A stretch of DNA of 64,000 nucleotides from an uncultured Verrucomicrobiota bacterium. GTDB taxonomy: Bacteria > Verrucomicrobiota > Kiritimatiellia > Kiritimatiellales > Tichowtungiaceae. Within the stretch, counting starts at the first letter, position 1, and each line of letters opens with the position of its first letter. The stretch is from contig CAIKGD010000071.1 of the NCBI GenBank assembly GCA_903826865.1, forward strand, positions 1 to 64,000, given 5' to 3'. Shown here one piece after another: positions 5,039 through 23,107 of this stretch. Both the position numbers and the translations under genes were made by a program. Under the pieces are notes generated by a model, which saw only the letters and a program-made list of their open reading frames with translations, was not told where the DNA came from and ran no database searches.

Positions 5039-5039
5039 C

Positions 5040-6581: not shown

Positions 6582-6694
6582 AACCCACCCCGGCCTGCGG
6601 CCACCTCTCCCACGGAGGGGCTCGGGTAAAATCCAGAAACCGCCAGCAAAAAAATCCCCTCTTTTGGAGGGGTGCCGGAACGGCGGGGTGGGTT
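6582..6694. repeat. REP-like element, ACCCACCCCGGC type, full copy
   Basis: Outer arms ACCCACCCCGGC (6583-6594) and GCGGGGTGGGTT (6683-6694) enclose two inner blocks, CTCCCACGGAGGGG and CCCCTCTTTTGGAGGGG. A related full copy is at 20507-20596 and a half copy is inside the M16C peptidase gene at 58909-58948. Confidence 0.75.
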
Positions 6695-6818
6695 CCAAAC
6701 CAAACCGTTTCCCCTGTTGCCAACATGCGCGCTATTTCTTAGTCTGCTAGTGAAAAAATATGTTGGGTATAAACCAGAATTAAAGTTCATTTAACAACGC
6801 TGCTTGGCAGAATTAAAA

Positions 6819-7547
6819 ATGAATAAGAAGCAAATATTGGAAGAGATTCAACGCCTCACAAAAGCCGCTGGTGGTGTAGCGCCTGGCAAAAGAACATTTG
6901 AAACCAAAACTGGCGTTCGGGAAAGTGACTGGCTCGGCAAGTATTGGATTCGCTGGAACGATGCCGTCACGGAAGCTGGTTGTTTGCCCAATCAAAAACG
7001 GGTGGCTTACACGGAACTTTTCCTGATCGAAAGCCTCGCAAACTTCATCCGGGAACTTGGCCACTATCCTGTTAAAGCCGAATTTTTAATGAAGGCGCGT
7101 TCTGACGCCACATTTCCTGGGGAGTCAACATTCTGTCGATTTGGATCGAAGTGTCAGATCGTTGCCAAAGTTATAGAGTTTTGTGAAGCGAATAAGGATT
7201 ATGCCGATGTAGTGGCGATGTGCCCCTCTTTGTCCGCAAGACGAGACGCTGAACCAGATTTGGAGCGCTGCCATGAACAAGAACTTGGATTTGTTTATCT
7301 CATTAAGCACGGCTCTCGACGTGAGTATAAAATAGGTCGCACGAACAATACACTCCGTCGAGAGGGTGCGATAGGCCTTGAACTCCCAGAGCAGATCAAA
7401 CCAATCCACGTTATCCAGACTGATGATCCGGCAGGAGTCGAGGCATACTGGCATCGCCGGTTTTCAGATAAGCGACTTAAAGGTGAGTGGTTTGAACTAA
7501 CAGCAAACGACGTGAAGTCATTCAGACGTTGGCGACGAATTTCTTAG
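6819..7547 (+). CDS. Homing-endonuclease-like protein: HNH-associated repeats plus T5orf172/GIY-YIG-type domain
   Basis: The N-terminal part (to about residue 135) holds two repeats of the homing-endonuclease-associated type, each ending in a G..W or FGS segment and an A/C-rich helix. The C-terminal part (about 155-242) reads FVYLIKHG...YKIGRT...VEAYWHRRF...GEWFEL, the pattern of T5orf172/MUG113 domains related to GIY-YIG nucleases. The start is placed at ATG 6819; a TTG at 6804 would add five residues, and neither has a clear Shine-Dalgarno sequence. Codon use is more AT-rich than in the neighbours and a REP element lies upstream, so recent acquisition is likely. Function is unknown beyond probable DNA binding or cutting. 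Confidence 0.75.
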   Translation: MNKKQILEEIQRLTKAAGGVAPGKRTFETKTGVRESDWLGKYWIRWNDAVTEAGCLPNQKRVAYTELFLIESLANFIRELGHYPVKAEFLMKARSDATFPGESTFCRFGSKCQIVAKVIEFCEANKDYADVVAMCPSLSARRDAEPDLERCHEQELGFVYLIKHGSRREYKIGRTNNTLRREGAIGLELPEQIKPIHVIQTDDPAGVEAYWHRRFSDKRLKGEWFELTANDVKSFRRWRRIS

Positions 7548-7601
7548 CATTTGACTAACAGGCAATCGTCGCATCTCAAGTGCACAAATTCGGAAAGAAC
7601 T

Positions 7602-8261
7602 CTACTTTGCTTTTTTGCTGTGTTGCAGCGCATAGATCATTTTAGCGCCTGCGGTGGTCAGTCCGGCAGATTCAGGCTCCGCTTTGAAATCTGTCACGGT
7701 AAGGATCAGCGCATCGTTTACTACTGAAGCATCCAAGGTCTGCGGTTTTTCATGCGACAAAACCTGCGCGAGCAGCTGACAGACGGCTTCCTGTTCTGTT
7801 GCGGGAAGAATCGTGGACTGAAGCATCCGGCGCGCGGCGGCGATTGGTTTTTCTTCGTCTTGAAGCATCGCAACCAGCAGCGCACCGGTTTTTACATGGC
7901 AGGGATCTCCGCCTTCCGAGGTCAATAGCAGGTTGGCGATCCGGCAGATTTCCATGGCTGATTCATACCGCGCCGGCTGTGCTTCGGTTTTTGTTTTCAA
8001 CTGCGCCTTGAGTTTTTCGATAACCGGTGCGGCGGCCAGCTGTTCGTCGGCCGAGTGTCCCAGACACTGCGCACCGAATTTGCACCACTTAGCGCAGCCC
8101 AGATCGATGCGCGGGTTGCGCACCTCTTTCTGACAGACGCGGCAGAGGCGGAACGGTTCGTCTTTCCAGAATTCGATGGAGTTATCACAGTACGGACAGC
8201 TGACATCAAAAATATCTTTGGCCGTCCAGTAGCGCATATCCTGTCCGGGGCAGCGCGGCAT
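7602..8261 (-). CDS. Cys-rich Zn-ribbon protein of the CODH/ACS operon
   Basis: Starting at MPRCPGQDMRYW, the 219-residue protein has an N-terminal cysteine-rich module: CPYC, then CRVC, then CAKWCKFGAQCLG (residues about 22-65), giving at least seven cysteines suited to one or two metal sites. The rest is helical, with no motif I can assign. From memory of the family, proteins with a similar N-terminus occur in CODH/ACS clusters of other anaerobes. It is the last gene of the long leftward operon, 2 bases after the G3E GTPase. Metal delivery or cofactor maturation is an inference from context only. The longer frame (to 8312) overlaps the upstream gene and was not used. Confidence 0.72.
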   Translation of the reverse strand: MPRCPGQDMRYWTAKDIFDVSCPYCDNSIEFWKDEPFRLCRVCQKEVRNPRIDLGCAKWCKFGAQCLGHSADEQLAAAPVIEKLKAQLKTKTEAQPARYESAMEICRIANLLLTSEGGDPCHVKTGALLVAMLQDEEKPIAAARRMLQSTILPATEQEAVCQLLAQVLSHEKPQTLDASVVNDALILTVTDFKAEPESAGLTTAGAKMIYALQHSKKAK

Positions 8262-8263
8262 AG

Positions 8264-9262
8264 TTATTCTCCCCTCAGTTCTTTTTCCATAGGCCGGAAC
8301 TGTGCCAGACAAAGGCGCTTGAACGGGCCTTCGCTCATGCCATAGACAATAGCATTCACAGTCAATGTCAGCTTTTCGACGGGACCGGCGGGCAGACGAC
8401 CCTTCTGAACCGGCGGCTGATCGTGATCGGTTACGCTGAACACCGCATAGCCGACCGGTTCTGTTTTGATGATCGCTTTAAGGTGTCCAATCAGAATGCC
8501 GTCGGCGGGCTTCAACTGCTGGCTGAGCTTTTGCAGAAACTGCTCAACAAGCTGGATGGCGGCAGTATCCGGAGTATCCACCGTCACCGATGCCGCGAAA
8601 ATGGCGGCCTTCGGGAGATTGTTTTCATCGGACAGCTCAACGGCCGGTTTTTTTATTTCAGCCTGAGCGGACAGCGCCGTGATTTTTCCGATCAGCTGAT
8701 CAACATTGGTCCCTTGCTCTGCCGAGACGCAGAGTAATTCGGCGAACGGATTAACCTCCAGCAGGCGCTGCTGAAGTTCGTGAAGCTGTTCCGGCGAAAC
8801 AAGGTCGGTCTTATTGATCGCCACCAGATCGGCAATTTCAATTCCGTCATGGATCAGCGGAATGGAAAAATCACGGAAACGGGGCATCCGCTGAGCGTCG
8901 ACCACCGCAACCATTATTATTTTTTCAATCTCGCCGCTGTAACCGCAAAGACACTGCTGAATCTGTTTGGGTCCGGCGACGCCGGACGGTTCCAGAAAAA
9001 CAATATCCGGCTTCACTTCCCGTTCCAGTTCCAGCAGCGTCTGGATCAGATCGTACCGGAGACTGCAGCAGACACAGCCGGAATAGATTTCGCGGACGGA
9101 CAATCCTTCCGCTTTCAGCAGTTCGCCGTCTACGCCGGTTTTGCCGGCTTCGTTTTCGATAATGGCGACTTTAAGCCCCTGCCCGCTGAAGGTTTTGGCC
9201 AGTGCAAGCAGCAAGGTAGTCTTGCCGCTTCCCAGAAATCCGCTGATGACGATGAGTTTCAT
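8264..9262 (-). CDS. G3E GTPase with intact CxCC motif (second copy)
   Basis: The start MKLIVISGFLGSGKTT has a good Shine-Dalgarno sequence (AAGGGG) and gives 332 residues. Walker A GFLGSGKTT, the metal motif GCVCC (about residues 62-66), EPSGVAGP and NKTD are all present. COG0523/HypB-like GTPases deliver metals such as Ni or insert cofactors. Here it sits between DUF3786 and the Zn-ribbon gene, with gaps of 7 and 2 bases, inside the CODH/ACS operon. Since acetyl-CoA synthase and CODH both need nickel, nickel loading is the most natural role, but this is inference. Confidence 0.86.
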   Translation of the reverse strand: MKLIVISGFLGSGKTTLLLALAKTFSGQGLKVAIIENEAGKTGVDGELLKAEGLSVREIYSGCVCCSLRYDLIQTLLELEREVKPDIVFLEPSGVAGPKQIQQCLCGYSGEIEKIIMVAVVDAQRMPRFRDFSIPLIHDGIEIADLVAINKTDLVSPEQLHELQQRLLEVNPFAELLCVSAEQGTNVDQLIGKITALSAQAEIKKPAVELSDENNLPKAAIFAASVTVDTPDTAAIQLVEQFLQKLSQQLKPADGILIGHLKAIIKTEPVGYAVFSVTDHDQPPVQKGRLPAGPVEKLTLTVNAIVYGMSEGPFKRLCLAQFRPMEKELRGE

Positions 9263-9269
9263 TTTCCCC

Positions 9270-9869
9270 TTAGAAAAGACCGAAGCAGATGCGGCCTGCC
9301 AGCACGGCGGCATCTTCGGCGCAGAAGGCGCGTTTGACAGGCATATTAAAAAACAGCTCCGCTTCTGCCGGAAATTCATCGTCGCCGAGGCGGTAAATCA
9401 GGGTGACATAAAGGCAGCCGATGGCATGAATCCGGGCGCTGAAATCGCCGTGTTCCAAAGGTTGGAAATCGAAACGGCTCATGGCAACTTTCAGATCGTC
9501 CAGCCGGTTTCCGTAGCGTTTGACCAGCGGTTTAACCGTGCGGGAAAGAAAAGGTTCGAGATAGAAAGCGCCGCCGGGAAAATCGCGGAAGGTGATCAGC
9601 TCGTCCGAAGGAGTCAGCGGCAGGTCGCACAACAGCAGATGAAGAATCAGAATACGGTCGCCTTCTTTGGCGGGAGCGCCGGTTTTACTGTTCACCAGTT
9701 CGAAGGCATCGGTGGTCAGCTCAAAATCGGTACCGAACGCCCGCAGCTTCAAACGCCCGTCAACCGGCGCCGGAAGTTTTAAAGCCGCGCACCGTACCGC
9801 CAGATCAACCTGTTTCAGTTTGTTGACAGCCTGCCGGATCGCTTCTGCCTGTGCGTCCTGTTTTGACAT
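9270..9869 (-). CDS. DUF3786 protein of the CODH/ACS operon
   Basis: The 199-residue soluble protein carries the DUF3786 pattern: LLCDLPLTPSDELITFRDFPG, then FYLEPFLSRTVKPLVKRYG, then a late segment LGDDEFPAEAELFF. The family is found beside CODH/ACS and corrinoid genes, and its biochemical role is not established to my knowledge. It starts 2 bases after the RACo stop, so translation is probably coupled. Codons for D-F-Q-P-L-E-H coincide with a copy of the dispersed palindrome (9453-9467). Confidence 0.82.
   Translation of the reverse strand: MSKQDAQAEAIRQAVNKLKQVDLAVRCAALKLPAPVDGRLKLRAFGTDFELTTDAFELVNSKTGAPAKEGDRILILHLLLCDLPLTPSDELITFRDFPGGAFYLEPFLSRTVKPLVKRYGNRLDDLKVAMSRFDFQPLEHGDFSARIHAIGCLYVTLIYRLGDDEFPAEAELFFNMPVKRAFCAEDAAVLAGRICFGLF
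9453..9467. repeat. Dispersed palindrome copy in DUF3786 gene
   Basis: TTCCAAAGGTTGGAA, a perfect 6-bp-arm palindrome, read in frame as F-Q-P-L-E. It is the only copy found between 1 and 29 kb. Confidence 0.6.
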
Positions 9870-9871
9870 GG

Positions 9872-11776
9872 TTACTTCATTGCCGCGTGAACGGTGGGAA
9901 ACAGATAGGGATCCGTGTGCGGCAGGAACAGAGCGGCCGTGTACTGATCCATATAGGCCGGATCCGAACTCAATTCGATATACGTCATGCGGTTGGCCAG
10001 TTCGATCTGCCGCTGGTAATAGTCGCGGGAGACGAGCGTCATATACGAACCCATGAGCGAGGAGTTGCCGATATATTTGAATTTATCGCGCGGGAGGTCG
10101 GGGATCAGCCCAAGCACCGTTGCTTTATCGAGATCAAGAAAACGGCCGAACCCGCCTGCAATGTAGATGCACGTCAGGTCATTAAACGTCATTCCGACCT
10201 GTTTCAGCATCAGGGCGCAGGCGGAATAAATGGCAGCCTTGGTGCGAATGATGTTTTCGATATCGCTTTCGCTGATGCGAAGCGCCTTGCCGGTACCGCT
10301 CTCTTCCGCGGTAGCCACGATATAAAAAGCACTGCGCCCGGAAAATTCAATCGCCGGCGACGGTTTGTCCCGGTTCAGCTTTCCGGCGGAATCAATCCAG
10401 CCCGCCAGAAAAAGATCAGCCAGCAGCGCGATCATGCCGGATCCGCAAATGCCCAGCGGTTTTGTGTCGCCGACCGTCCATTTCCGGCAGACGCCCGTGG
10501 CGGGATCCACTTCAACGCGTTCGATGGCACCAAGAGCGGCGCGCATGCCGCAGTCAATGCCGCCGCCTTCAAAAGCCGGCCCGGCGGAGCAGGCGCAAGC
10601 CATCAGAAAGTCGCAATTACCGACGACAATTTCCCCGTTGGTGCCAATGTCAATAAAGAGGTTCACGTCAGGGCTGTCTGTCGCCAGATCCGTGCAAAGC
10701 AGCCCGGCGGTGATGTCCCCGCCTACATAACTGCCGACGCACGGGGAAAGGCAGACGCGCGAATCGGGATTGATTTCGATGCCGACTTCCGAGGCCGGAA
10801 GATAGAGCGACTTCATAATCGTCGGCGTATACGGATCAAGCCGGATATATTCGGGGTTCAGGCCGAGCAGCAGATGCAGCATGGTCGTATTGCCGGAAAT
10901 GACCGCATTGCAGATTTCCGACGGCAGCACATCGTGCGCTCCGGTCGCTTTTTTGATCAGCCCGTTGATTGTTTTCAGAACGCGGACGCGAAGTTCTTCA
11001 CGCCGTTCAGGCTGCCGCGCATAATTGATCCGGCTGATGACATCCAGACCGCAGGCTATCTGGCCGTTGTAGTCGGAGTGCGTGACGATGATTTTCCCCA
11101 CTTCGAGGGAAACCAGCTGCACCGCAACGGTGGTCGTGCCGATATCCACGGCGATGCCGTAATTGCGAACCGTGCCGTCACTCGGTTCAACGCGCAGGAC
11201 GTGAATCCGGCTGCCTTCGCGTACCAGCGAGACGGTTACCCGCCCATTATCTATCCGCAGCGTATCGGCCAGTCCGCGCAGTACGTTGATGGAACAGGCC
11301 ACGTCGTATTGACCCCAGTCGTGCTGAATAGCGCGCGTGAACCGGTCGAAATCTGAAAGCCCGTCCTCCAGTCCGGCCGGAGGAACTTCAATCATCCATT
11401 TCACCGCCAGCGGATCAAACTCCCACTTGTCCGGCAGCAGTTCGCGGCGGATCAGACATTCCTCTTCCAGCGATTCGACAAACTTCCCGCCGTCCCATCC
11501 GGTTCGCTGCGGAGTTTCAACGGTGACATCGTCATGGAGAATTTTTGTTTTGCAGGCCAGCACATAGCCGTCCGCAACCAGCTCCTGCGAAAGCGCGCCC
11601 AGACTCTGGGAATCAACGGAGCCGGCCAGAATGCGTACCATGCACTTGCCGCAGGTGCCCTTCCCGCCGCACGGTGCGTCAATGGATACATCGGCCAGCC
11701 GGGCGCATTCCAGCAGGCTGGAACCGGCTGCGGCCTCGATGCTCTTTTCCGACGGCTGGAAGGTTACAACGGGCAT
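9872..11776 (-). CDS. RACo: ATP-dependent reductive activator of the corrinoid iron-sulfur protein
   Basis: Starting at MPVVTFQPSEK, the protein has about 634 residues. An N-terminal 2Fe-2S ferredoxin domain shows APCGGKGTCGKC plus a later ACKT cysteine. An ASKHA-type ATPase follows, with DIGTTTVAVQL, ISGNTTMLHLLL, DIGTNGEIVVG and IYIAGGFGRF. RACo proteins use ATP to return inactive Co(II) corrinoid to Co(I). The gene follows acsC, so this copy most likely serves the CoFeSP. The longer frame reaching 11869 has an N-terminus encoded by a repeat and is not credible. Confidence 0.9.
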   Translation of the reverse strand: MPVVTFQPSEKSIEAAAGSSLLECARLADVSIDAPCGGKGTCGKCMVRILAGSVDSQSLGALSQELVADGYVLACKTKILHDDVTVETPQRTGWDGGKFVESLEEECLIRRELLPDKWEFDPLAVKWMIEVPPAGLEDGLSDFDRFTRAIQHDWGQYDVACSINVLRGLADTLRIDNGRVTVSLVREGSRIHVLRVEPSDGTVRNYGIAVDIGTTTVAVQLVSLEVGKIIVTHSDYNGQIACGLDVISRINYARQPERREELRVRVLKTINGLIKKATGAHDVLPSEICNAVISGNTTMLHLLLGLNPEYIRLDPYTPTIMKSLYLPASEVGIEINPDSRVCLSPCVGSYVGGDITAGLLCTDLATDSPDVNLFIDIGTNGEIVVGNCDFLMACACSAGPAFEGGGIDCGMRAALGAIERVEVDPATGVCRKWTVGDTKPLGICGSGMIALLADLFLAGWIDSAGKLNRDKPSPAIEFSGRSAFYIVATAEESGTGKALRISESDIENIIRTKAAIYSACALMLKQVGMTFNDLTCIYIAGGFGRFLDLDKATVLGLIPDLPRDKFKYIGNSSLMGSYMTLVSRDYYQRQIELANRMTYIELSSDPAYMDQYTAALFLPHTDPYLFPTVHAAMK

Positions 11777-11783
11777 AGGGATA

Positions 11784-11896
11784 ATTATGAAAGATGAACT
11801 ATGAGAGATGAAAACGGGTCTGCGACGCTGCTGACAAAAAGGCCAACGCCGTTTGAGTTCCGGTTTCACAGTTCATATTTCATCCTTCATCTTTCC
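11784..11896. repeat. Inverted repeat of short words (GATGAA type) inside the operon
   Basis: The left arm (11784-11813) repeats ATGAAAGATGAACTATGAG-like words and the right arm (11863-11896) carries the complementary TTCATATTTCATCCTTCATC series. It fills the gap between acsC and the RACo gene and could act as an mRNA hairpin or attenuator within the operon. Confidence 0.7.
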
Positions 11897-11897
11897 G

Positions 11898-13247
11898 TTA
11901 AAGATACTTTGAATACACGGCCTTGACCCAGCTTTCCATATCGCTGGCTTCCTGCGCTCCCACCACGACTTTCCATCCTGGCATGCACTCCTGCAGCTCG
12001 CCGCTGATCTGCGCCACGTAGCCCGGAATAACAATTTCACGGGTCGTGACTTTGTTATCGAGGTCGATGGATTTGCAGAACTTGGCAATCGCCGCGCCGG
12101 AGAATTTTCCGGCGGCCCAGGCCGTCAGCACGCTCATGCCTTCGCATTCCGGAATCACCAGCCAGGCATTCAAGCCGCTGTTTTCAATTTCGCCGGACAC
12201 AATGAAGTAGGTCAGCGAGAAATTGGTGGTGACAAATACCGGCGAGTCTTTGGTCGGCTCACCGATTTCATAGAGCTTCGGCTCAACCTGAATCGGCTTC
12301 TGCGGATCGGTGTACATGTTCTGCCGGAGGCTCATCATCGGAACCAGCTGTGCCGGATCAAAGGACGGCAGTACGCACACGCCGCCGTATTTTGAAATTT
12401 CATTAACCGCCACAACACTTTCTTCAAGCATGCTGGATTTGGGAACGATATGCAGTGTCGGATATCCCAGCGGCTTAAAGCTGTCTTTCAGCGCGGCGCG
12501 GCGGGCAATCGAGTTGGTCTGGAACAGTTCGGAGAGCGAACCGGTCTGATATTGAAGAATCAGATCGTTGAACCCGGCGTCCTTGATCTTCGCGGTCAGC
12601 GCAGTCAAGGCATTGAGATCCGGCGCGGTGACGGCCAGTGCATGGCCGTTGCCGGCGGCGACTTTCACGAGAGTCTCTGCGGTTTCAGGCGTGGCGGACG
12701 CCAGAATGCTGCGCGAACCTTTAACCGCTTCGGCGGCGGCGGTAAGCTGTGCAACATCCGTGCTGTTAATCACCAGCGGACGGCCGGTAACTTCGTACGC
12801 CTTTTTGCAAAGCGCCGCAAACGTCGCCGCATTGCCGGACTTGCAGGTAACGCACACCGCATCAATGGACAGCAGTTCGCCGACGCGATCCAGTTCATAC
12901 TCTTTGATGGACCGGAGCGTTTTGTCTATATCCGCCGCCGCATCGGTGTCATTGACGTTGATCGCCATCGCCGTCTGATTCACGAAGGTTTTTTCGTGGC
13001 GGTAGAGAACGGTTTCGTCGCCCAGCGAAAACGCCTTGTCCGTGCCGATCTGAATCTTTTTAACCGGCGGCTCGCTGGCGGCGCCCAGAATCTGTTTCGC
13101 TTCATCGGAAGCGTAAGGACATTCTGAGAGTTCCGCTTTCTGCGCAGCCAGTTTCATTGCGAACGCGAGACATGTATTCGAGCCGCACTCTTTACAGTTC
13201 GTTTTCGGCAGCAGTTTCTGTATTTGTAAGCCTGTCAGTTTTGCCAT
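11898..13247 (-). CDS. acsC: Corrinoid iron-sulfur protein, large subunit
   Basis: The 449-residue protein is the gamma subunit of CoFeSP, which carries the methyl group on cobalt to acetyl-CoA synthase. The N-terminal 4Fe-4S motif C-K-E-C-x4-C with a fourth Cys at SECPY lies within residues 18-43. The TIM-barrel and corrinoid-binding C-terminal domain follow, with normal overall length. It is 27 bases downstream of the AcsB-AcsD fusion gene, matching the two-subunit CoFeSP if the fused AcsD part is its partner. Confidence 0.95.
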   Translation of the reverse strand: MAKLTGLQIQKLLPKTNCKECGSNTCLAFAMKLAAQKAELSECPYASDEAKQILGAASEPPVKKIQIGTDKAFSLGDETVLYRHEKTFVNQTAMAINVNDTDAAADIDKTLRSIKEYELDRVGELLSIDAVCVTCKSGNAATFAALCKKAYEVTGRPLVINSTDVAQLTAAAEAVKGSRSILASATPETAETLVKVAAGNGHALAVTAPDLNALTALTAKIKDAGFNDLILQYQTGSLSELFQTNSIARRAALKDSFKPLGYPTLHIVPKSSMLEESVVAVNEISKYGGVCVLPSFDPAQLVPMMSLRQNMYTDPQKPIQVEPKLYEIGEPTKDSPVFVTTNFSLTYFIVSGEIENSGLNAWLVIPECEGMSVLTAWAAGKFSGAAIAKFCKSIDLDNKVTTREIVIPGYVAQISGELQECMPGWKVVVGAQEASDMESWVKAVYSKYL

Positions 13248-13274: not shown

Positions 13275-16200
13275 TTAATTAGCCATCAGCTTGCTGATTG
13301 TACGTTTCGCTGCCATCGCCGCTTCCGGGTTATACATGATCAGCAGGTCGGCACCGGCATAAAGCAGGCTGACCGCTGTATTCAGTTCCCAGGCCGCAGC
13401 CCGCTTGGCAAGGTCGCCCCAGAGCGGGAAGTCCTTTTCTTCCGCTTTGCATTCCTTGATCTTTATGCACTCCTGGCCGGGCGAAACAATCAGCGGTGCA
13501 CACAGCAGCTTGTCGCCGCCGAGCGCCGTTTGACGGATGCGCTCCATCACCGAGTAGGTGTATTCGATACCGTAACCGATCGCGCCGGTCATCGGATCCA
13601 TCACGATCTGCTCCTTCTTCAGGTCCATATTGGTCAGCAGAATATTCAGCTGTTTGCCGATATTGACGTCAATCGGGCTTTGGGCGACGAGCGTGTGACC
13701 GTAGGCCATCGCCGCACCGGCAATCGTCCGGTAGTTATCCTGTTCCACCCAGTTCAGCAGCAGGTTTTCGCCGGCGCAGGCTTGCGCCACCGCTTTCAGC
13801 ACTTCGTTGTTTTTCTCGAAGTGACTGTGGCCGGTGATGATCAGCGGAACGCCGACCGCACTCAGCACCTGTTTGACCAGCTTGACGGAGTCTTCAACGC
13901 TCCGGTTGCCTTTTTCAGGATGGGTTCCTTCTAGGCGGACGCTGATTAGATCGGCGCCGTATTTATCAACCAGCACCCTGGCCATTTCCGCCGGATTATC
14001 AAGCAGACTGCCGTAGATGTTGCGCAGTACCGGCGGATATTTGGCGCTGACCAGATCGTAGACTTCCATCGCCACCAGCGGACGGTTCGGCATGGTGCCT
14101 TCCCAATGATGGAACGGCATGGCCGAAGCTCCGCCGATCTTGTGGGTTACTGTGCGGGTGCCACCTTCGGCTTTGGTCGCGCCCAGCTTGACTTCCCAGA
14201 GCGGTGTGTCGGCCGTCTCTTTCCTGATTTTAAAAGACGTCACTTTACTCAGGCGTTCGGCCGCCGATGATTTAACTTCAACCGTTTCGGTCGCGGCCGG
14301 TTCGGCCGATGAAACGGCCGGAGTTTCGCCAAGAAACTTCGAACTCAGCGTGCCGATGATGTCGCGCACAATCTGCTGAGTCAGTCCGGCTTTGACCTCC
14401 GCCAGAATTGACTTCTTAAGCGTTTCAATCGCGGCAACGTCAAGCACGGCACCGGAAACCGGAGCGGGTTCAGCCGCTTTCACAGCCGGAGCAGCAACCT
14501 CTGCTTTCTCGGGTTTGGCTTCCGTCTCCGCCGACTGGGCGTAGTTGGCCATGTCATCCATGGACACGGCCGGATGGCCTACTTTTTCCATGTGGGCGCG
14601 GATCGCGGCGGCATCCGTAGCGATCGTTTCGTCCGCGATCTGATCCATCAGATTCGGTGCGCCCTGTTCCGCAAAACGTTTGTTCAGATCGTCTTTCAAC
14701 AGCTCCTTGAGTTCTTTCGGCATCCAGACCAGGCGCTTGAAGCCGCCTTCCGCACCGAGGAATTTACGGGAAGTCAGGAAGACCTTTCCGCAACCCATGA
14801 AACCAGGAGTCTGCTGACCGCCGCCGACGTTTCCGGCCAGCGTAGAGAAAGTCATGCCGACCGGCGTGTCGCCCTGAAACTCGCGATTGACCACCATCAC
14901 GCCGTTCAGCTCGGGAACGTAGGCGCAGATCGCTTCAAAGCAGCCGCAGCTGGTCATCGGACGATCCATGATGGAGTAAGCGCAGAAGGTTTCGATATTC
15001 TTATGGCTGTTCGAATAAACGTATTCGTTGATTCCGCCCCAGATGCCTTTCACCGGATCAAGACATTCGCCTTTCTTGACCGGCTGGTTCGGGCCGGTTT
15101 CGTCAATTTCGTAAGCCGCTTTGCCGTCCAGCCAGTTGTAGGCGCCGCACAGGCCGAGACGCTCGGGCGTGATGATACACACATGATCCGGCGCAAAGGA
15201 CTGGCAGAGCAGACAGGAGTAGAAGGTCTCGACCGACTCGTCCGTCATCGCTTCAAGACGGCGGTTGCGTTCGTCATACACTTTGCGGGCGACCTTGACG
15301 CGGCGTTCCACTTCGTCGGGATCGGTAACCATCGTGACTTTGACTTTGTCCACAATTGCCGGATATTCCGAAAGCAGTTTGGCGTGCAGGATTTCCCCGT
15401 AATGTTTCAGGCGCAAACCTTTTTTGAAGCCTTCCTTGGAAACGCGGGTCCAGACGATATCGCGCTGGCCCATGTGCCAGATACCTTCCGCGCCGTTCAC
15501 CAGATGATGAATCTGGCGTTCCAGAATCGGCTCGAAATCGGACTGCATTTTGCGCCCGGCCACTTCGACCCAGATGGCAAGCGGCATGGCCGTTCCTGCC
15601 GGAACCGTATCAATATCCGGACCGATAAGTTCAATATCGCCGTCGTTGATCTGATCCATTTCAACGGAGGTCACGAATTCAAACGCGGTGGTCAGGTTGC
15701 CGCCGAATTCCGCATGGACATCCTGTTTACGGATGCGTTCGCCTTCGAACGCGGGGCCGTAGGCCACCGGTACCGGCACATGCGTGATCTTAATTTTGCA
15801 GCCGCGGATTTCGAGCGCACGATCCACCATCTCGTCGGGTTTGACGTTGGCTACCACGTGTTCGTAGGTACAGACACCGGTCGGCAGAATTTCAGGAATG
15901 TCGGTATCGGCGATAACCGGGAAGCCGTAGTTGATGGCTCCGGCGGCGGCGGCGTATTTGTCGCTGGTCACTTCGCCGAAGGCCAGCACGAACGCAAAGA
16001 TGCGGTCTTTGTTGTACTTCAGGTTCGCGGCGAAATCACCGGGCTTGACGCCGCCGAAGGCCAGCGCCGCGCGGTTGGCAAAACCAAGCGCATAAATCAG
16101 CGACGAGACATCCTTACCGAAAGGAACCAGACGGGTTTCCCATCCGAGTTGAACGCCCTCTTCGGCCAGCTGGTCGGCGAAGGTTTTCCCGCCGACGCCG

Positions 16201-16724
16201 CCGCCCATGAAAACATAGATGTTTTTTTGCTGAAGATCTTTGGCGATTTTCACCGCGATCGCGTTGGTCGGAGCCAGACCGGTGATCGCTGCAAAGCCCG
16301 GCGCGCTGCCGTCCACAAATTCGACACCGCGTTCGCGCATGATGACGTCGTTAGCCGCGCCGAGATAAATCCCGTCCACCGGATTCGGGCCGATGACATA
16401 TTTACAGGCTTCGATAATTTCGCAGGCGAACAGCGCGGCGGCGCCGGCATCCAGTGTGGCACCAAGATACGGTAGCCAGACTTTTTCGGTCGGCCGCGCC
16501 GGCAGATACTGCTTGGCCAGATTCAGCACCCGGCGCATGTCGGCCAGTGTTGAAACTTTTTCGCCGGTGAATGAATAGATCACCGGCAGGTAATAGGCCG
16601 TGTCCGGCAGGGCGACCGGAAAGTCAATTCCCTTGGCTTTAATCGCCTCATCCAGCTTGGATTCCGCCTTGGCGACCCACTCGATCGCCCCGTCAATGGC
16701 GCTGGTGCAAATAATTTTAGACAT
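13275..16724 (-). CDS. Fusion of acetyl-CoA synthase (AcsB) and CoFeSP small subunit (AcsD)
   Basis: The single 1149-residue frame has two enzymes. Residues 1 to about 725 are bacterial-type AcsB with its N-terminal CODH-binding domain. A-cluster cysteines appear as SCLLCQSFAPDHVC plus a Cys in GLCGAYNW (about 503-530), and CGCFE is at about 593. Residues about 835-1149 are AcsD, the TIM-barrel small subunit of the corrinoid iron-sulfur protein (from SFKIRKETADTPLWEVK to SLLYAGADLLIMYNPEAA). An Ala/Pro/Glu-rich linker of about 100 residues joins them. These are normally separate genes. The start overlaps the acsA stop by 8 bases and has a GGAGAG ribosome site. No internal stop or frame change is visible. 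Confidence 0.93.
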   Translation of the reverse strand: MSKIICTSAIDGAIEWVAKAESKLDEAIKAKGIDFPVALPDTAYYLPVIYSFTGEKVSTLADMRRVLNLAKQYLPARPTEKVWLPYLGATLDAGAAALFACEIIEACKYVIGPNPVDGIYLGAANDVIMRERGVEFVDGSAPGFAAITGLAPTNAIAVKIAKDLQQKNIYVFMGGGVGGKTFADQLAEEGVQLGWETRLVPFGKDVSSLIYALGFANRAALAFGGVKPGDFAANLKYNKDRIFAFVLAFGEVTSDKYAAAAGAINYGFPVIADTDIPEILPTGVCTYEHVVANVKPDEMVDRALEIRGCKIKITHVPVPVAYGPAFEGERIRKQDVHAEFGGNLTTAFEFVTSVEMDQINDGDIELIGPDIDTVPAGTAMPLAIWVEVAGRKMQSDFEPILERQIHHLVNGAEGIWHMGQRDIVWTRVSKEGFKKGLRLKHYGEILHAKLLSEYPAIVDKVKVTMVTDPDEVERRVKVARKVYDERNRRLEAMTDESVETFYSCLLCQSFAPDHVCIITPERLGLCGAYNWLDGKAAYEIDETGPNQPVKKGECLDPVKGIWGGINEYVYSNSHKNIETFCAYSIMDRPMTSCGCFEAICAYVPELNGVMVVNREFQGDTPVGMTFSTLAGNVGGGQQTPGFMGCGKVFLTSRKFLGAEGGFKRLVWMPKELKELLKDDLNKRFAEQGAPNLMDQIADETIATDAAAIRAHMEKVGHPAVSMDDMANYAQSAETEAKPEKAEVAAPAVKAAEPAPVSGAVLDVAAIETLKKSILAEVKAGLTQQIVRDIIGTLSSKFLGETPAVSSAEPAATETVEVKSSAAERLSKVTSFKIRKETADTPLWEVKLGATKAEGGTRTVTHKIGGASAMPFHHWEGTMPNRPLVAMEVYDLVSAKYPPVLRNIYGSLLDNPAEMARVLVDKYGADLISVRLEGTHPEKGNRSVEDSVKLVKQVLSAVGVPLIITGHSHFEKNNEVLKAVAQACAGENLLLNWVEQDNYRTIAGAAMAYGHTLVAQSPIDVNIGKQLNILLTNMDLKKEQIVMDPMTGAIGYGIEYTYSVMERIRQTALGGDKLLCAPLIVSPGQECIKIKECKAEEKDFPLWGDLAKRAAAWELNTAVSLLYAGADLLIMYNPEAAMAAKRTISKLMAN

Positions 16725-18666
16725 TGAGTGCTCTCCGATCTTTCATATCCAGAAGTTTACGTTCAGCTTTTTTGTTAATCCCGAGATTTTCGCGGGCCTG
16801 TTCAATGAGTTCACAAACTTTGTCCGCTGCCGCCAGCGGGTCGGCGATTTCGTAGAATGCCGCGCCGAAGAGTTCTTTGGACTCTTCCTGAAGGAACTTA
16901 TTGACGTTGGCTGAACCGGACGTATGGAAAGGCAGTCCCAGAATTACGTCGCAGCCCGATGCCACGAAATAGCAGCCGATCGTAATGGCTTTTTCGCTCA
17001 TCCATTCCGGCGCCACGCCGACGGCCGGCAGTTTGCTCAGGTCGTCGCCCAGTCCGCCTTCAAAACAGATTTCAGTCGCGGCCTCCAGAATGCGCCCGTT
17101 ATCCACGCAACTGCCCATGTGCAGAATCGGCGGAATACCGACGGTTTCGCAAACTTCGCGAAGACCGGCGCCCGCCAGTTCCAGTGCCGTCTCGGGCGTC
17201 ATGCAGCCGTTTTTGGCTGAGGCCTGCGCGGCGCAGCCGGTCTGGAGCAGCAGCACATTGCGCTTAACCAGTTCCCGGCTCAGCGCGTTGATATAGGAGT
17301 CGGCTTCGGTCTTTGGGTTGTTGCAGCCCACGATACCGCAAACGCCGCGAATGCGTCCGGAAATGATCGCGTCATTCAGCGGACGGAACGAAGGACGGAA
17401 CGAACCGCCCAGCATGTACTTGATAGCTTCGACGCTGAACCCGGCGACCAGCGGACTTTTATCCGCCGGAACCGCCACTTTGGCGGGATCGCGTTTTTTG
17501 AACAGATCCACCGCACGTTTCAGCATGACCTTTGCGGATTCGTAGGCTTTATCAGCCTCGAACGGCATATGTGTCGCGCCGATGGTTTTGGCGATGTTGG
17601 TGGTCGAAATGATTTCCGTGTGATAATGGCTCGCCACGGTCGGGAGGCTGGGCATTACGCACTGCACATCCACCACCATCATTTCCACCGCACCGGTGAT
17701 GATCGCCAGTTCCTGCTGATGGAAGTTGCCGGCTACCGGCACGCCTCGGCGCATCAGAATTTCATTGGCCGTACAGCAGAGTCCGGCCAGCTGAACGCCT
17801 TCCGCGCCGGCGGCCTTGGCATAAGCGACGATTTCAGGATCATTGGCGGCGGCGGCCAGCATATCGGACAGCGCCGGTTCATGACCGTGAACAATCACGT
17901 TCACCTTTTTGACATCCAGTACGCCGAGGTTGGCCTGACTGCGAATCGGCACCGGCGTACCGAACAGAATGTCGGACACCATGGTACCAATGCGCGAACC
18001 GCCCCAGCCGTCGGCCAGTGAAGTGCGGTACGCCTGTTTTAAAAGATTTCGGTAATCATGGTCCACACCCATGTGTGTGCGGTGCATGGACTCTACACAC
18101 ATGCGGTCAATTCCTTTCGGAGCGGTGCCGGTTTTCTCCCAGACGGCCTGCTGCTTCTGCGGAGCCAGCTTAAGACTCTTCAGCGTTTCCTCCTGTGAAG
18201 TGAATTCACCCAGAAAAAGCATGGCCAGATCCAGCGCAAGTTCCTGTGTCGTCCGGTTCTCGGTCGGAATTTCATGTTCTGTGCAGGATCGTTTGAGGGC
18301 TTTAACATCCTTCACTTCATAATCGCCGCCCTTGCCTTCGCCGATGGCTTTAAGACGCAGCACCAGATGACGGGCATGGTCGGAATGAGCCGCCGCGCCG
18401 CCGACCACTTCGCGCAGGAAGTTGCGCGCGACAATCGTATCGGCATTCGCGCCGCAGACTCCGAGCGGAGAACGCGGAGTGATTTTACACGGCCCCATGT
18501 GACAGATTTTACAGCAGACGCCTTCGACGCCGAATTTACACTGCTTGCCCTGCTGGTCAAACCGCGTGAAACAGGTGTCCACGCCCTCCGACATCGCTTT
18601 TGCAATCACCTCATGCGAGGCCTTGTCCGCCACGCGCTGATGAGGATTTTCAGGTGTTTTTATCAT
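16717..18666 (-). CDS. acsA: Carbon monoxide dehydrogenase, Ni-Fe catalytic subunit
   Basis: The 649-residue protein interconverts CO2 and CO at the Ni-Fe-S C-cluster and passes CO to acetyl-CoA synthase. The cysteine-rich N-terminus CKFGVEGVCCKICHMGPC supplies the B and D clusters (about residues 42-61). Downstream C-cluster ligand regions include GLCCTANE, GVCGIVGCNN, LLQTGCAAQ and HMGSCVDN. It lies directly upstream of and overlaps the AcsB-AcsD fusion gene, so the complex subunits are co-translated. Confidence 0.96.
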   Translation of the reverse strand: MIKTPENPHQRVADKASHEVIAKAMSEGVDTCFTRFDQQGKQCKFGVEGVCCKICHMGPCKITPRSPLGVCGANADTIVARNFLREVVGGAAAHSDHARHLVLRLKAIGEGKGGDYEVKDVKALKRSCTEHEIPTENRTTQELALDLAMLFLGEFTSQEETLKSLKLAPQKQQAVWEKTGTAPKGIDRMCVESMHRTHMGVDHDYRNLLKQAYRTSLADGWGGSRIGTMVSDILFGTPVPIRSQANLGVLDVKKVNVIVHGHEPALSDMLAAAANDPEIVAYAKAAGAEGVQLAGLCCTANEILMRRGVPVAGNFHQQELAIITGAVEMMVVDVQCVMPSLPTVASHYHTEIISTTNIAKTIGATHMPFEADKAYESAKVMLKRAVDLFKKRDPAKVAVPADKSPLVAGFSVEAIKYMLGGSFRPSFRPLNDAIISGRIRGVCGIVGCNNPKTEADSYINALSRELVKRNVLLLQTGCAAQASAKNGCMTPETALELAGAGLREVCETVGIPPILHMGSCVDNGRILEAATEICFEGGLGDDLSKLPAVGVAPEWMSEKAITIGCYFVASGCDVILGLPFHTSGSANVNKFLQEESKELFGAAFYEIADPLAAADKVCELIEQARENLGINKKAERKLLDMKDRRALNV

Positions 18667-18711: not shown

Positions 18712-19473
18712 TCAAAGTCCTGCGTCCGCCAGCAATCCGTCGATGCGCTGAACGACCGGATTCTCCGGCGGAACATCCGCCATATTTTTTCCGTTTTCAC
18801 CGAATTCCGCCAGTTCCTGATTGTCCGGAATACCGATCAGAAAATCGGCGCCGGTTTCCTTTTTCAGCGCCAAGGCATAGTCCGGCAGTTCATCGCGGCG
18901 CATCCGGTTGATGACCAGCGCCAGCTTGCCGTAAGTGATTTCCATTTCACCCGTTACTTCGTGGAGCCGTTTCAGTGTATCCAGTCCGCGCCGTGACGGA
19001 TCGGCCACCATCACCAGCAGATCAACCTGTTGAACAATCCGGCGCGAAAGATTTTCCATGCCGGCTTCATTATCAAGCACCACATAGGGATACTCATTTG
19101 AAATCGTATGAATGGCCTGCTTAAGCACATTGTTCGCATAGCAATAGCAGCCGGGGCCTTCCGAACGGCCCATTGCAATCAGATCAAAATCAGGCGCCTC
19201 GACCAGGCTTTCGGCAATTTTCATTTCCAGCAGCTGCTGTTTAGAAATGCCGGCGCCGAGTCCTTTGGCCGCTTCGCGGCGCGCGCTCTCGCGGACCCGG
19301 CCGATCGTATTCTCCGCCCGGACGCCGAGATTGCTGTCCAGACAAGTGTTCGGATCGGCATCCACCGCCAAAACCGGTTTTTTGCCGCGGGCAATCAGCC
19401 GGCGGACAATCAGCGCGGAAAGAGTCGTCTTGCCGACCCCGCCTTTGCCGCTTATGCCGATTAAATAACTCAT
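18712..19473 (-). CDS. CooC/AcsF-type nickel-insertion ATPase (first of two)
   Basis: Starting at MSYLIGISGKGGVGKTT gives about 253 residues. The deviant Walker A GKGGVGKTT, the DADPN motif and a CYC pair in GPGCYCYANN match CooC/AcsF MinD-like ATPases that load nickel into CODH or ACS. The preceding residues of the longer frame (to 19527) overlap the upstream gene and look non-native. It sits 45 bases before acsA. Two CooC-type genes in one operon may split the CODH and ACS nickel-loading tasks. Confidence 0.9.
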   Translation of the reverse strand: MSYLIGISGKGGVGKTTLSALIVRRLIARGKKPVLAVDADPNTCLDSNLGVRAENTIGRVRESARREAAKGLGAGISKQQLLEMKIAESLVEAPDFDLIAMGRSEGPGCYCYANNVLKQAIHTISNEYPYVVLDNEAGMENLSRRIVQQVDLLVMVADPSRRGLDTLKRLHEVTGEMEITYGKLALVINRMRRDELPDYALALKKETGADFLIGIPDNQELAEFGENGKNMADVPPENPVVQRIDGLLADAGL

Positions 19474-19489
19474 ACAAATTCCATTAAAA

Positions 19490-19687
19490 TTAAGCGCCCG
19501 GTGTTTTTCCGGGACCGCAACCGTCACTTAGCCGCGTAAGTTTTTTGCGCGCTTCAGCAAGTTCTTCCATAACCAGTTTAAGCTTCGCCAGATCAGCTCC
19601 GGCGGTTTCCAGTTCACTCACCTGTTCTTCCAGTTCATCGACTTCGCGCATCACTCTGGCGAATTTTTCACGTTGGACGTCTGTCAT
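19490..19687 (-). CDS. Small coiled-coil protein between the two CooC genes
   Basis: The 65-residue acidic protein is almost entirely helical and heptad-like (VDELEEQVSELETAGADL...LVMEELAEARKKL), ending in a Gly/Pro-rich tail with one Cys (DGCGPGK). Its start overlaps the stop of the upstream CooC gene as ATGA, and the next CooC gene starts 16 bases later, so it is almost certainly translated. No function can be assigned; an adaptor for CODH/ACS maturation is a guess from position. Confidence 0.72.
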   Translation of the reverse strand: MTDVQREKFARVMREVDELEEQVSELETAGADLAKLKLVMEELAEARKKLTRLSDGCGPGKTPGA

Positions 19688-20466
19688 GATTTCACTCCTT
19701 CTTCGATGCGGGTTAATATTGAGGTAAAGGCGGCTTCCAGTTTCGGCGACAGCAGGTCAAGCGGCGAACAGCTTTTCCGGTCGGCTACGCCGAACGATTT
19801 GTCGAAAGGAATCACACCCAGCAAAGGCAGTTCAGGAAGCGCCTGGCGGATAAACGCCTCTTCGTCCGGCGAAGCGACTTTATTCGCCACCATCTGCAGA
19901 TTGCGCAGGCCGATCTCATGCGCCATGCGGATAATCCGTTTCGCGCAGTCCACCGAACGCTGACCGGGTTCCACCACAATCAGCATGCAATCAACGCCGC
20001 GGGCCGTGGCACGCCCTAGATGCTCGACACCGGCTTCCATGTCCATGATGAGTGCTTCGCTTTTGTTCAGCACCATGTCGGAAACCAGCGCCCGGATCAG
20101 TACGCCTTCCGGGCAGCCGCATCCGCCGCCGCCCTGATCGACCGCGCCCAGCACCAGCAGAGAATAGCCGTCTTTATTGAACGCATAGCTCCCCGCAATA
20201 TCATCCACGGTCGGGTTGAGCTTGAACATCTGCCCGTAGCGTTTGACTTTCGCGCCGGTCCGTTCTTCGATCAGCCGGGTCTGCTCCGCAATCGGAACAA
20301 TGGTTTTCTGCTCTTCCGGGGAAATGCCGAGCGACCCCGCCAGATTGGCATCCGGGTCCGCATCAAGCGCCAGCACCTTCACGCCCTTGCGCACAAGCAA
20401 GAGCGTCAGCACAGCGGCAAGGGTGGATTTCCCCACCCCGCCTTTCCCTGTAATCGCTAATTTCAT
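19684..20466 (-). CDS. CooC-type nickel-insertion ATPase (second of two)
   Basis: The 260-residue MinD-like ATPase has Walker A GKGGVGKST, a DADPDANL motif, and the CGC metal motif in GGGGCGCPEG (about residues 113-122), the pattern of CooC proteins that bind nickel at the dimer interface. The effector-region sequence differs from the copy at 18712-19473. It is followed by the coiled-coil gene with a 4-base overlap and preceded by a REP element. Confidence 0.9.
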   Translation of the reverse strand: MKLAITGKGGVGKSTLAAVLTLLLVRKGVKVLALDADPDANLAGSLGISPEEQKTIVPIAEQTRLIEERTGAKVKRYGQMFKLNPTVDDIAGSYAFNKDGYSLLVLGAVDQGGGGCGCPEGVLIRALVSDMVLNKSEALIMDMEAGVEHLGRATARGVDCMLIVVEPGQRSVDCAKRIIRMAHEIGLRNLQMVANKVASPDEEAFIRQALPELPLLGVIPFDKSFGVADRKSCSPLDLLSPKLEAAFTSILTRIEEGVKS

Positions 20467-20599: not shown

Positions 20600-21670
20600 T
20601 TAGAAGCCGTATTTTTTCTTCATGGCCGTGGATACCTGCTTGACCATTTCAAACACTTTTTCGGCATCCGCCTCGGCCATGGAACCGGTTCCGCAGGACG
20701 GGGTGATAATCGCCTGCTCCGTGATGGTCTTTTTGCTGATGCCGGTGGCAGCCAGATTATCCATTACTTCTTCGAGCCGTTTGCAGAGGCTTTCACAGGT
20801 CTGCTCGCGAATCGCGGGCGAGGTCGGCACAACGCCCCAAGCCAGCAGACCGCCGCGACCAAGATGTTCCTTCATGGAATCGGCATACATTGCAACGGTT
20901 TCGCCGAATTCAAAGGCGTCGAAATTGACGATATCAACGCCGGCATCAATCAGAATGCTCCACTCGGTATTGCCGCAGCAGTGGGTACCGGCCAGTCCTC
21001 CGTCCATATGCACCGCTTCAACGCACTCGTTCAGCGCGGCGACAACTTCGTCACGGCTGACGGAAACGTAGGTCGAACTGCCGAAGGCCGAGAGAATAGG
21101 CTCGTCGATAAAGCAGATGATATTTTCGGCATACGGTTTGAACTTCTGAATCTGCCAGCGGCATTTCATCGCCATGGATTTGACGATCACATCGCGGAAT
21201 TCTTCGTTGTACCAGAGAGCGCGCTTGTTTTCGTCCACGATCGTCAGGGCAAAGCTGATCGGGCCGGTCGTCTGCACTTTGAGCCAGGGCAGTTTTTTGC
21301 CGTTCGCTTTAAGCCGTTTTTCCAGCGCGTAAATGCCGTGCGAGAATTCTTCGGAAATCGCCATCGCTGAACAGTCGCCGGTGCCGCTGTCCGGATCCAT
21401 CGCCGCCATGTACGCGTCGTAAAAACCGGCGAACGCATCGGAATAATCACCGGTGGTGTCGAACGACATGCGGCCTTTGACTTCGTCAATCACTGCGCGC
21501 GGAATGCCTTCCGAATATTGGATTTCCATCTGCTCTTTCAAACCGAAGAAAGAGAGCTGGGGCCAGATCGGACAGTCCAGCTTGGACAACGAAACGTCAA
21601 TTGCATGACCGACATCTGAAAACGGCATCGAGCCGATCGCCGAACCGAGGAATTTTGTTTTAATCGCCAT
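20600..21670 (-). CDS. Core MetE-like methyltransferase (possible corrinoid-dependent methionine synthase)
   Basis: The 356-residue protein belongs to the UroD/MetE superfamily and contains only the catalytic zinc domain, not the duplicated domain of full-length MetE. Candidate zinc ligands are the His and Cys residues of THCCGN (about residue 230) and Cys in ITPSCGTGS (about 322). Short 'core MetE' proteins are known that methylate homocysteine from methyl-CoFeSP or methylcobalamin instead of methyl-folate. Its place in the CODH/ACS operon fits such a role, giving methionine from the corrinoid methyl pool. Another methyl acceptor cannot be excluded. Confidence 0.75.
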   Translation of the reverse strand: MAIKTKFLGSAIGSMPFSDVGHAIDVSLSKLDCPIWPQLSFFGLKEQMEIQYSEGIPRAVIDEVKGRMSFDTTGDYSDAFAGFYDAYMAAMDPDSGTGDCSAMAISEEFSHGIYALEKRLKANGKKLPWLKVQTTGPISFALTIVDENKRALWYNEEFRDVIVKSMAMKCRWQIQKFKPYAENIICFIDEPILSAFGSSTYVSVSRDEVVAALNECVEAVHMDGGLAGTHCCGNTEWSILIDAGVDIVNFDAFEFGETVAMYADSMKEHLGRGGLLAWGVVPTSPAIREQTCESLCKRLEEVMDNLAATGISKKTITEQAIITPSCGTGSMAEADAEKVFEMVKQVSTAMKKKYGF

Positions 21671-21688: not shown

Positions 21689-22585
21689 TTATGCCGTAAC
21701 CGCTTCTTTCATCGCTTTGATATGCGCCGGCGTCGTGCCGCAGCATCCGCCGATAATATTCGCGCCGGCCGCGACCAGTCCGTGAACCTGCGCCGCCATC
21801 ATTTCCGGAGTTTCCGGGAAGGTGTCCACGCCGTTTACATTTTTCGGCAGCCCGGCGTTGGCATGAACGAGAATCGGAGTTTTCGGAGCGACCTTGCGCA
21901 TCACCTTCACGATTTCAATCATGCGCTCAATGCCGTTGCCGCAGTTCGTGCCGATAATGTCCGCACCGGCTTCCAGCATGGCTTCTGCCGCCTGTTCGGG
22001 CGAAACACCCATCATCGTGCGATAGTCGCCGTTGACTGTGCGTTCAAAGGTGAACGTGACGATCGCTTCACAGGATGTGTTTTCCTTCACGGCTTTGACG
22101 GCCAGCGCGGCTTCTTCCACATCGCTCATGGTTTCAATACAAATAGCGTCTGCTCCGCCTTTTGCCAGCGCAACAACCTGTGTTTTGAAAGCATCGTACA
22201 GTTCTTCTTCGGTCACTTCTTCCGTCACCAGCATCTTGCCGGTCGGACCGACGGAGGCGATCACCCACTTGGTGCCGCCAGCCTCGGCGGCCGCTTCTGC
22301 GGAAAGTTTAGCCGCCGCTTTGTTGATTTCCGCCACGCGGTCTTTCAGACCGAAATGTTCCAGCTTGAACGAAGTGCCGCCGAACGTATCGCTCTCTACC
22401 ATATCGGCACCGGCCGCGAAATAGGCCTGGGCAATCGCTTTGACATCCGCCGGACGGTCAACCGCCCACAGTTCCGGACATTCACCGGGTTTGAGCCCTT
22501 TTTTCTGGAGGAAAGTTCCCCACGCGCCGTCCGAGATCAGCACTTTACCGCTTTTCACTGCATCAACAATTTTCTGCTTAGCCAT
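21689..22585 (-). CDS. Homocysteine S-methyltransferase-domain protein
   Basis: The 298-residue protein is a stand-alone Pfam S-methyl_trans barrel, like the first domain of MetH. The zinc ligands appear as TNCGNG (about residue 215) and GGCCGTTP (about 281). It would transfer a methyl group between a corrinoid protein and homocysteine or another thiol. It is the first gene of the CODH/ACS operon, with a GATCTTGCCG site about 165 bases upstream. The corrinoid protein at 24989-25612 is a candidate partner. Together with the core MetE-like gene just after it, this makes two thiol methyltransferases in tandem. Confidence 0.88.
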   Translation of the reverse strand: MAKQKIVDAVKSGKVLISDGAWGTFLQKKGLKPGECPELWAVDRPADVKAIAQAYFAAGADMVESDTFGGTSFKLEHFGLKDRVAEINKAAAKLSAEAAAEAGGTKWVIASVGPTGKMLVTEEVTEEELYDAFKTQVVALAKGGADAICIETMSDVEEAALAVKAVKENTSCEAIVTFTFERTVNGDYRTMMGVSPEQAAEAMLEAGADIIGTNCGNGIERMIEIVKVMRKVAPKTPILVHANAGLPKNVNGVDTFPETPEMMAAQVHGLVAAGANIIGGCCGTTPAHIKAMKEAVTA

Positions 22586-22873: not shown

Positions 22874-23107
22874 TTAATGGTGATGATGGCCGTGGTCGTG
22901 TGAATGATCGTGACCATGGTGGTGATGGCTGTGCTGCATGCTGTGAACAATTTCCTGCATAAGTTCACGGGAACCGGCAATAGCGGCCAGTTCGTCCTTA
23001 TTCAGCGTCGCGGCCAGCCGGTTATTGATCGATTCCAGTCCGCGCAAGAACGCTTCGATTTCCTCTTTTTCAAACGGCAGATCAAGGGCACTCATTCCGT
23101 CACACAT
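22874..23107 (-). CDS. Small protein with a histidine-rich tail, CooJ-like
   Basis: The 77-residue protein has a helical body and a C-terminus in which 13 of the last 19 residues are His, interspersed with Gly, Asp and Ser. Such tails bind Ni or Zn. CooJ of Rhodospirillum rubrum, a nickel protein of the CODH system, has the same design (helical body, His-rich end), though I cannot claim homology. The start overlaps the end of the second RACo gene by 8 bases, and a terminator follows, so the pair forms a defined transcript. Nickel storage for CODH/ACS is the working guess. Confidence 0.75.
   Translation of the reverse strand: MCDGMSALDLPFEKEEIEAFLRGLESINNRLAATLNKDELAAIAGSRELMQEIVHSMQHSHHHHGHDHSHDHGHHHH

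Follow-up and report, generated by a model that had tools for sequence, protein, structure and literature searches.

A fused acsB-acsD gene, apparently undescribed, and a proposed tether between acetyl-CoA synthase and the corrinoid iron-sulfur protein

Results

The fused gene and its linker

The 64,000-nucleotide stretch of DNA analysed here (the window), from an uncultured Verrucomicrobiota bacterium, carries on its minus strand (13275-16724) a gene whose 1149-residue product combines acetyl-CoA synthase (ACS, AcsB) with the small subunit of the corrinoid iron-sulfur protein (CoFeSP, AcsD). The evidence consists of its reading frame and translation, of matches to Pfam and NCBIfam profiles, and of about 50 orthologous fused reading frames. 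We conclude that the fusion is a real and widespread variant of a known enzyme system, apparently undescribed. In the fused chain, a long linker, predicted to be flexible, connects the C-terminus of ACS with the CoFeSP small subunit, and judging from sequence and predicted structure it is quite likely that this leashes CoFeSP near the A-cluster.

The reading frame starts with an ATG at 16724 and runs for 1149 codons with no internal stop, as stated in the first-pass annotation of this DNA, which had omitted the strand. Residues 1-725 (14550-16724, minus strand) form the AcsB part, made of an N-terminal domain that would bind carbon monoxide dehydrogenase (CODH), a middle domain and a C-terminal A-cluster domain, as recognised with Pfam, NCBIfam and Foldseek. 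The AcsB model NF040764 covers residues 10-725 at 1048.8 bits, above its cut-off of 800, and PF18537, PF03598 and PF19436 match as well. An A-cluster is held by four cluster cysteines and a Cys-Gly-Cys motif for the distal nickel. In the AcsB domain alignment, this ligand region (14940-15215, minus strand) contains C504, C507, C516, C526, C593, G594 and C595, all invariant in the 102 domains aligned (102/102). A full-length match above the curated cut-off, together with an intact ligand set, places the protein in bacterial AcsB, complete as first claimed; CODH binding and catalysis are predicted on this basis. The archaeal acetyl-CoA decarbonylase/synthase complex (ACDS) does not fit, given the PF18537 N-terminal domain. 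No CdhB was seen among the neighbouring genes scanned with Pfam and NCBIfam, and the whole genome contains a single CdhC-type domain.

The AcsD part spans residues 832-1149 (13278-14231, minus strand) and corresponds to the TIM barrel of the CoFeSP small subunit. PF03599 matches residues 845-1083 at 132 bits (cut-off 24.8) and NF003376 residues 832-1147 at 371 bits (cut-off 280); scores with the narrower models NF040759 and TIGR00381 fall below their cut-offs. When AlphaFold2 (AF2) models were compared with solved structures by Foldseek, the AcsD part alone resembled 4djd_D with a template modelling (TM) score of 0.93 and a root-mean-square deviation of 2.3 Å, and the N- and C-domains of AcsB resembled 6yua_A (TM 0.91) and 3s2x_A (TM 0.95), respectively. 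The full-barrel profile match and the fold of a solved subunit assign this part to the CoFeSP small subunits (AcsD/CdhD), and the claimed barrel is indeed complete. GC content is even over AcsB, linker and AcsD (0.57-0.58).

Between the two parts lies a linker of 106 residues (726-831; 14232-14549, minus strand), rich in Ala, Glu, Pro, Ser and Thr, which agrees with the Ala/Pro/Glu linker of about 100 residues described at first. In an alignment of 48 fused proteins, the AcsB-AcsD joint measures 66-217 residues, and its sequence is weakly conserved outside a segment of about 39 residues. This helical island, at residues 762-800 of the present protein (14325-14441, minus strand; DVAAIETLKK...IVRDIIGTLSSKFLGE), could be aligned in 39 fused proteins, with a consensus of about TPELIEQIKQQV ... 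LTxEIVRDIIGTLSxKFLGE. AF2 places a helix at 764-797 with low confidence, flanked by two linker arms whose predicted local distance difference test (pLDDT) values are about 30-50. One fused protein (L053) lacks the island, and those of Acidobacteriota have a different helix-like segment instead. A profile of the island matches fused proteins only, the best other match among unfused proteins of the fetched loci having E=0.97. We considered whether the island is left over from cooC or from the N-terminus of an unfused AcsD, and rejected this since no profile match fell below that value outside the fused proteins.

Distribution and history of the fusion

All fused relatives come from metagenome-assembled genomes, and taxon names are given as deposited, some of them being doubtful. 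A search for the joint architecture, proposed in the first-pass annotation, yielded full-length fused homologues in about 50 other genomes with names from about 16 phyla, at 58-77% identity overall and 74-77% within the phylum. As the same joint reading frame is found in about 50 independent genomes, chance, frameshift and misassembly are excluded. The annotation had considered that many described organisms with the fusion would undo its case; organisms are many, while no paper describing an AcsB-AcsD fusion was found in the open full-text literature (subscription papers were not covered).

Among 388 genomes of the phylum, AcsB was found in 25, unfused in 10 and of the fused kind in 15, the window genome included; 12 of these 15 genes are whole, and contig ends or runs of N break up the other 3. 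Of 80 loci obtained by scanning GTDB representatives, the better half were fused. Names attached to fused loci are Lentisphaerae, Verrucomicrobia, Planctomycetes, Clostridia/Oscillospiraceae, Treponema and other Spirochaetota, Chitinivibrionales, Synergistaceae, Syntrophaceae, Oligoflexia, 'Deltaproteobacteria', Acidobacteria, Aminicenantes, Latescibacterota, Hydrogenedentota, Sumerlaeota, Ignavibacteriae and Bacteroidota; habitats are termite gut, sediment and soil. The fused ACS cluster of one record named 'Akkermansia muciniphila' (L074) is close to the cluster of G342, a genome of the window's class, and the name of the record is probably wrong. Carriage by plasmids or viruses was rejected, as a plasmid search gave one distant unfused match and a viral search gave none.

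In a maximum-likelihood tree of AcsB, the fused proteins all group in a single clade (SH-aLRT 100), and the fusion therefore probably arose once and then spread with its gene cluster. In the AcsD tree, the fused proteins fall in a clade (support 100) together with two unfused ones, L117 from Aminicenantes and L032 from a genome of the window's class, whose clusters are ordered acsB-cooC-acsD-acsC. The simplest account would be an ancestor with a similar order, in which cooC moved upstream, followed by one fusion and horizontal spread of the cluster. We infer this with some reserve, because the AcsB and AcsD trees differ in their nearest unfused relatives.

We also considered whether divergent treponemes had acquired a fusion independently, and rejected this because their DNA shows separate acsB and acsD reading frames, then acsE. 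In Treponema primitia-like treponemes the two frames are separate, and six other genomes of the same family group are fused. Successive genes for ACS, the small subunit and the large subunit have been reported in termite treponemes (Matson et al. 2011, PMC3082573).

A proposed tether

We propose that the fused chain would stay whole in the cell, and that AcsC would dock on its AcsD part in trans and non-covalently, thereby leashing a CoFeSP heterodimer to ACS. Methyl-CoFeSP would then have a high local concentration at the open A-cluster, and methyl transfer would become quasi-intramolecular. The leashed CoFeSP could still swing to the methyl donor and to the reactivating AcsV, by analogy with the linkers of pyruvate dehydrogenase E2, and the linker helix might be a docking or dimerising element. 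In AlphaFold3 and cryo-electron microscopy work on CODH-ACS-CoFeSP, the C-domain of ACS meets the corrinoid domain of AcsC, and its N-domain touches the CoFeSP beta-subunit, AcsD (PMC12289521). Given this last contact, an intramolecular approach is sterically reasonable, and by our estimate a leash of about 100 residues from the ACS C-terminus to AcsD would be long enough for the modelled contacts.

The first-pass annotation had proposed that tethering turns a transient encounter into a permanent one. What stands is that AcsD shares one chain with ACS, which would keep CoFeSP nearby, in line with the contact just mentioned; but only AcsD is covalent, and 'permanent' is too strong for a flexible linker that would raise local concentration. 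It is the C-terminal domain of AcsC, itself untethered, that carries the corrinoid, which would therefore be held only via the AcsC-AcsD heterodimer.

Gene neighbourhood and methyl source

The following genes around the fusion are all on the minus strand. Upstream, acsA/cooS (16717-18666) encodes a Ni-CODH of 649 residues (TIGR01702, 622 bits) and overlaps the start of the fusion by 8 bases. The large CoFeSP subunit, of 449 residues, is encoded by acsC (11898-13247; NF003195 at 520 bits, PF03599 and the 4Fe-4S domain PF04060), directly after the fusion as previously annotated, with a gap of 27 bases. It is followed by an acsV-like gene (9872-11869) for a reductive activator of corrinoid protein (RACo type), recognised by RACo domains and by NF040756 at 678 bits, below the cut-off of 800. 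The order acsA / acsB-D / acsC / acsV is kept in most fused loci, with AcsC and AcsV encoded separately. Beyond acsA lie two genes for cooC-like ATPases, at 18712-19527 (CbiA/MinD-type NTPase domains; its place upstream of acsA is conserved in fused clusters) and at 19684-20466 (CbiA domain; a conserved neighbour). Two more conserved neighbours follow, encoding p356 (20600-21670), a protein similar to zinc methyltransferases of the MetE-C/UroD fold by its AF2 model, Foldseek matches and motifs, and a homocysteine S-methyltransferase-domain protein (21689-22585; PF02574, 249 bits). Further on are a second RACo-type corrinoid activator (23100-24791; RACo_C_ter, 235 bits) and a stand-alone corrinoid protein of MtgC/MtbC type (24989-25612) with B12-binding domains, NF047996 (179 bits) and TIGR02370 (169 bits) both scoring below their cut-offs.

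Several other features were noted around the cluster. At its edge, 5040-6398 encodes a UroD/MtaA-type methyltransferase with a C-terminal thioredoxin-like domain (PF01208 and PF13192). Two CobW-family GTPases, possible chaperones for metals or corrinoids, flank the cluster (8264-9379 and 4094-4951). Small reading frames at 9273-9869 and 7605-8312 have no NCBIfam match, yet fused loci show them again downstream of acsV. A 77-residue reading frame (22877-23107) adjacent to the second RACo gene ends in a His-rich tail, HSHHHHGHDHSHDHGHHHH, and its product is perhaps a nickel or zinc store. An AdoCbl-II riboswitch (27042-27114, plus strand; Rfam RF01689, 43.7 bits) precedes a B12-uptake operon that adjoins the corrinoid cluster and encodes a TonB receptor, a periplasmic binding protein and a FecCD permease. 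The called GTG start, at 27063, falls within the riboswitch, and the true start is therefore downstream.

A normal acetogenic pathway is not evident. In the window genome, which is 98% complete, PF01268 finds no Fhs, and PF00809 finds no stand-alone AcsE, detecting only a 327-residue FolP-like reading frame and MetH; MetF is present. A complete Wood-Ljungdahl pathway is therefore not supported. Within the phylum, Fhs occurs in some families with the fused gene and is missing in others, and no stand-alone AcsE accompanies the fused genes, whereas a pterin protein of about 260-280 residues lies beside acsD in 8 of the 10 unfused genomes. Beyond the phylum, pterin matches in most fused genomes are of FolP and MetH size only, the exceptions being an AcsE-size match in the L065 genome and reading frames of 320-360 residues in a few others. 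Loss of AcsE is wider than the fusion, since many unfused loci of Actinomycetota and Brocadiales also lack it within their flanks.

In the fused-ACS genome G342, an 814-residue reading frame (L167, 368-2809) combines methylenetetrahydrofolate reductase (MTHFR, MetF), DUF5981 (MetV-like) and a pterin-binding domain (AcsE/MetH-like), and adjoins FolD- and Fhs-like genes. It is possibly a MetF-MetV-AcsE triple fusion. Reading frames of 825 and 980 residues in G415 and G417, with similarly weak pterin matches, may be the same.

The p356 protein (356 residues) has no Pfam match. Its AF2 model (pLDDT 92.9) matches MetE and a Methanosarcina mazei methyltransferase in Foldseek, and the motifs DEP, HxC and SCG are conserved. 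Homologues lie beside fused ACS in most loci and occur in Actinomycetota at 36-40% identity; 20 of the 27 family members match the methionine synthase model NF002119. It is probably an unnamed family linked to CoFeSP. The core methionine synthases MesB and MesC have been proposed to pass a methyl group from CoFeSP to homocysteine without AcsE, as in Dehalococcoides (PMC7857596).

The pattern of AcsE and Fhs, together with the methyltransferase neighbours, makes it possible that the system cleaves acetyl-CoA for methyl supply, or that CoFeSP is loaded by another corrinoid methyltransferase, the MtgC-like protein and the second RACo lying at 23-25.6 kb. That the cluster mainly cleaves acetyl-CoA or supplies methyl groups, methyl-CoFeSP serving homocysteine via p356 or the PF02574 protein, and does not form the end of a complete Wood-Ljungdahl pathway, is a serious possibility which we hold slightly less probable than its contrary, and it would be compatible with a tether. 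The two missing proteins, the core methionine synthase fold and zinc motif of p356, and the MesB/MesC proposal speak for it. Full Ni-CODH and CooC genes, several fused genomes with Fhs, and the absence of p356 itself from family libraries speak against it, as do MetF and MetH, with which methionine could be made the usual way. A bolder combination with the tether is a self-contained swinging-arm CODH/ACS, distinctly unlikely as a whole: the leash helix would dock CODH, AcsC or the methyl donor, p356, the PF02574 protein or the MtgC-like protein would load CoFeSP in place of AcsE, and acetyl-CoA would be made or cleaved without the folate branch.

Discussion

Several points weigh against a leash between ACS and CoFeSP, which is predicted from sequence and modelled structure. 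In the AF2 model, the mutual placement of AcsD and AcsB is undefined, with a predicted TM score (pTM) of 0.40. The island cannot be essential everywhere, given a threefold range of linker lengths, its absence in L053 and its different counterpart in Acidobacteriota. Lastly, L075, a Hydrogenedentota member of the fused clade, has a frame change in the linker without a run of N (4983-8989). A secondary split in Hydrogenedentota was rejected: runs of N fall within the junction or close to it in L076 and L035, and the frame change of L075 is indistinguishable from an assembly error.

A kinetically neutral fusion is rather unlikely in our judgement, with some weight left to it. It would fix AcsB and AcsD at 1:1 and provide co-translational assembly, and would be kept because the cluster travels as a unit. 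If the fusion arose once and the cluster then spread widely by horizontal transfer, as the trees suggest, its conservation does not require repeated selection, and no second independent fusion was found, Treponema primitia-like and other divergent treponemes having adjacent separate genes. It speaks against neutrality that no secure secondary split was seen among about 54 members of the fused clade despite long divergence, and that the linker keeps a conserved island instead of decaying freely. A chain translated whole and then cut in the linker, giving ordinary AcsB and AcsD, is very improbable: the linker is long and predicted to be unstructured, but no conserved cleavage motif was seen in it, and the island is conserved in most members. 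An assembly or binning artefact, for which one could invoke the 13 same-genus genomes lacking any AcsB, can be dismissed with near certainty, given the same fused reading frame in about 50 other assemblies, UvrB and PrfC on either side of the cluster on the same contig (78-92% and 77-93% identical to same-genus genomes), synteny with genome G026 over 51.7-62.7 kb, and the tetranucleotide composition of the cluster, which agrees with that of G026 and of the remaining contig. Since AcsB occurs in 1 of the 14 genomes of the genus while flanks, gene order and composition are native, the cluster was probably gained by the window species or lost by the other members.

The leash between ACS and CoFeSP thus remains our preferred reading. 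Within the Wood-Ljungdahl pathway, the step in which CoFeSP hands its methyl group to the A-cluster is difficult to trap, and added methyl-CoFeSP is reported to have overcrowded micrographs so far that single-particle analysis was not possible (PMC12289521). A natural 1:1 fusion of ACS and AcsD would ease this difficulty and offer biochemists a ready-made tethered complex. It would also serve as a model from nature for designing tethered synthetic CO2-fixing enzymes. Surveys counting separate acsB and acsD genes (and AcsE) can miscount the fused lineage.

Turning to known systems, p356 resembles the MesB/MesC core methionine synthases (PMC7857596) in its MetE C-terminal-type fold, zinc motifs and acs neighbourhood. 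It has itself no Pfam or NCBIfam match, the likeness being one of fold and motifs, and it may be a separate family. The fused protein shares its AcsB architecture and A-cluster ligands with the bacterial CODH/ACS of Moorella thermoacetica, Carboxydothermus and Clostridium autoethanogenum (PDB 1oao, 7zkj, 9fzy, 4djd). Its AcsB part is about 44-47% identical to solved ACS among Foldseek matches, its AcsD part resembles 4djd_D, and AcsA and AcsC are likewise encoded by separate genes. In those bacteria, AcsB and AcsD form two distinct chains, with CoFeSP free, whereas here AcsD is covalently attached to the C-terminus of ACS. The nearest unfused AcsD proteins among those compared, from the L117 and L032 clusters, are in the same AcsD-tree clade (57% identity), but cooC stands there between acsB and acsD, and the AcsD of L117 starts without linker or island. 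In the ACDS of methanogens (CdhA-E), CoFeSP (CdhD, CdhE) is part of one large complex with ACS and CODH. CdhC and CdhD are encoded there by separate genes, in contrast to the fusion, whose AcsB has the bacterial N-terminal domain and which is accompanied by no CdhB among the genes scanned.

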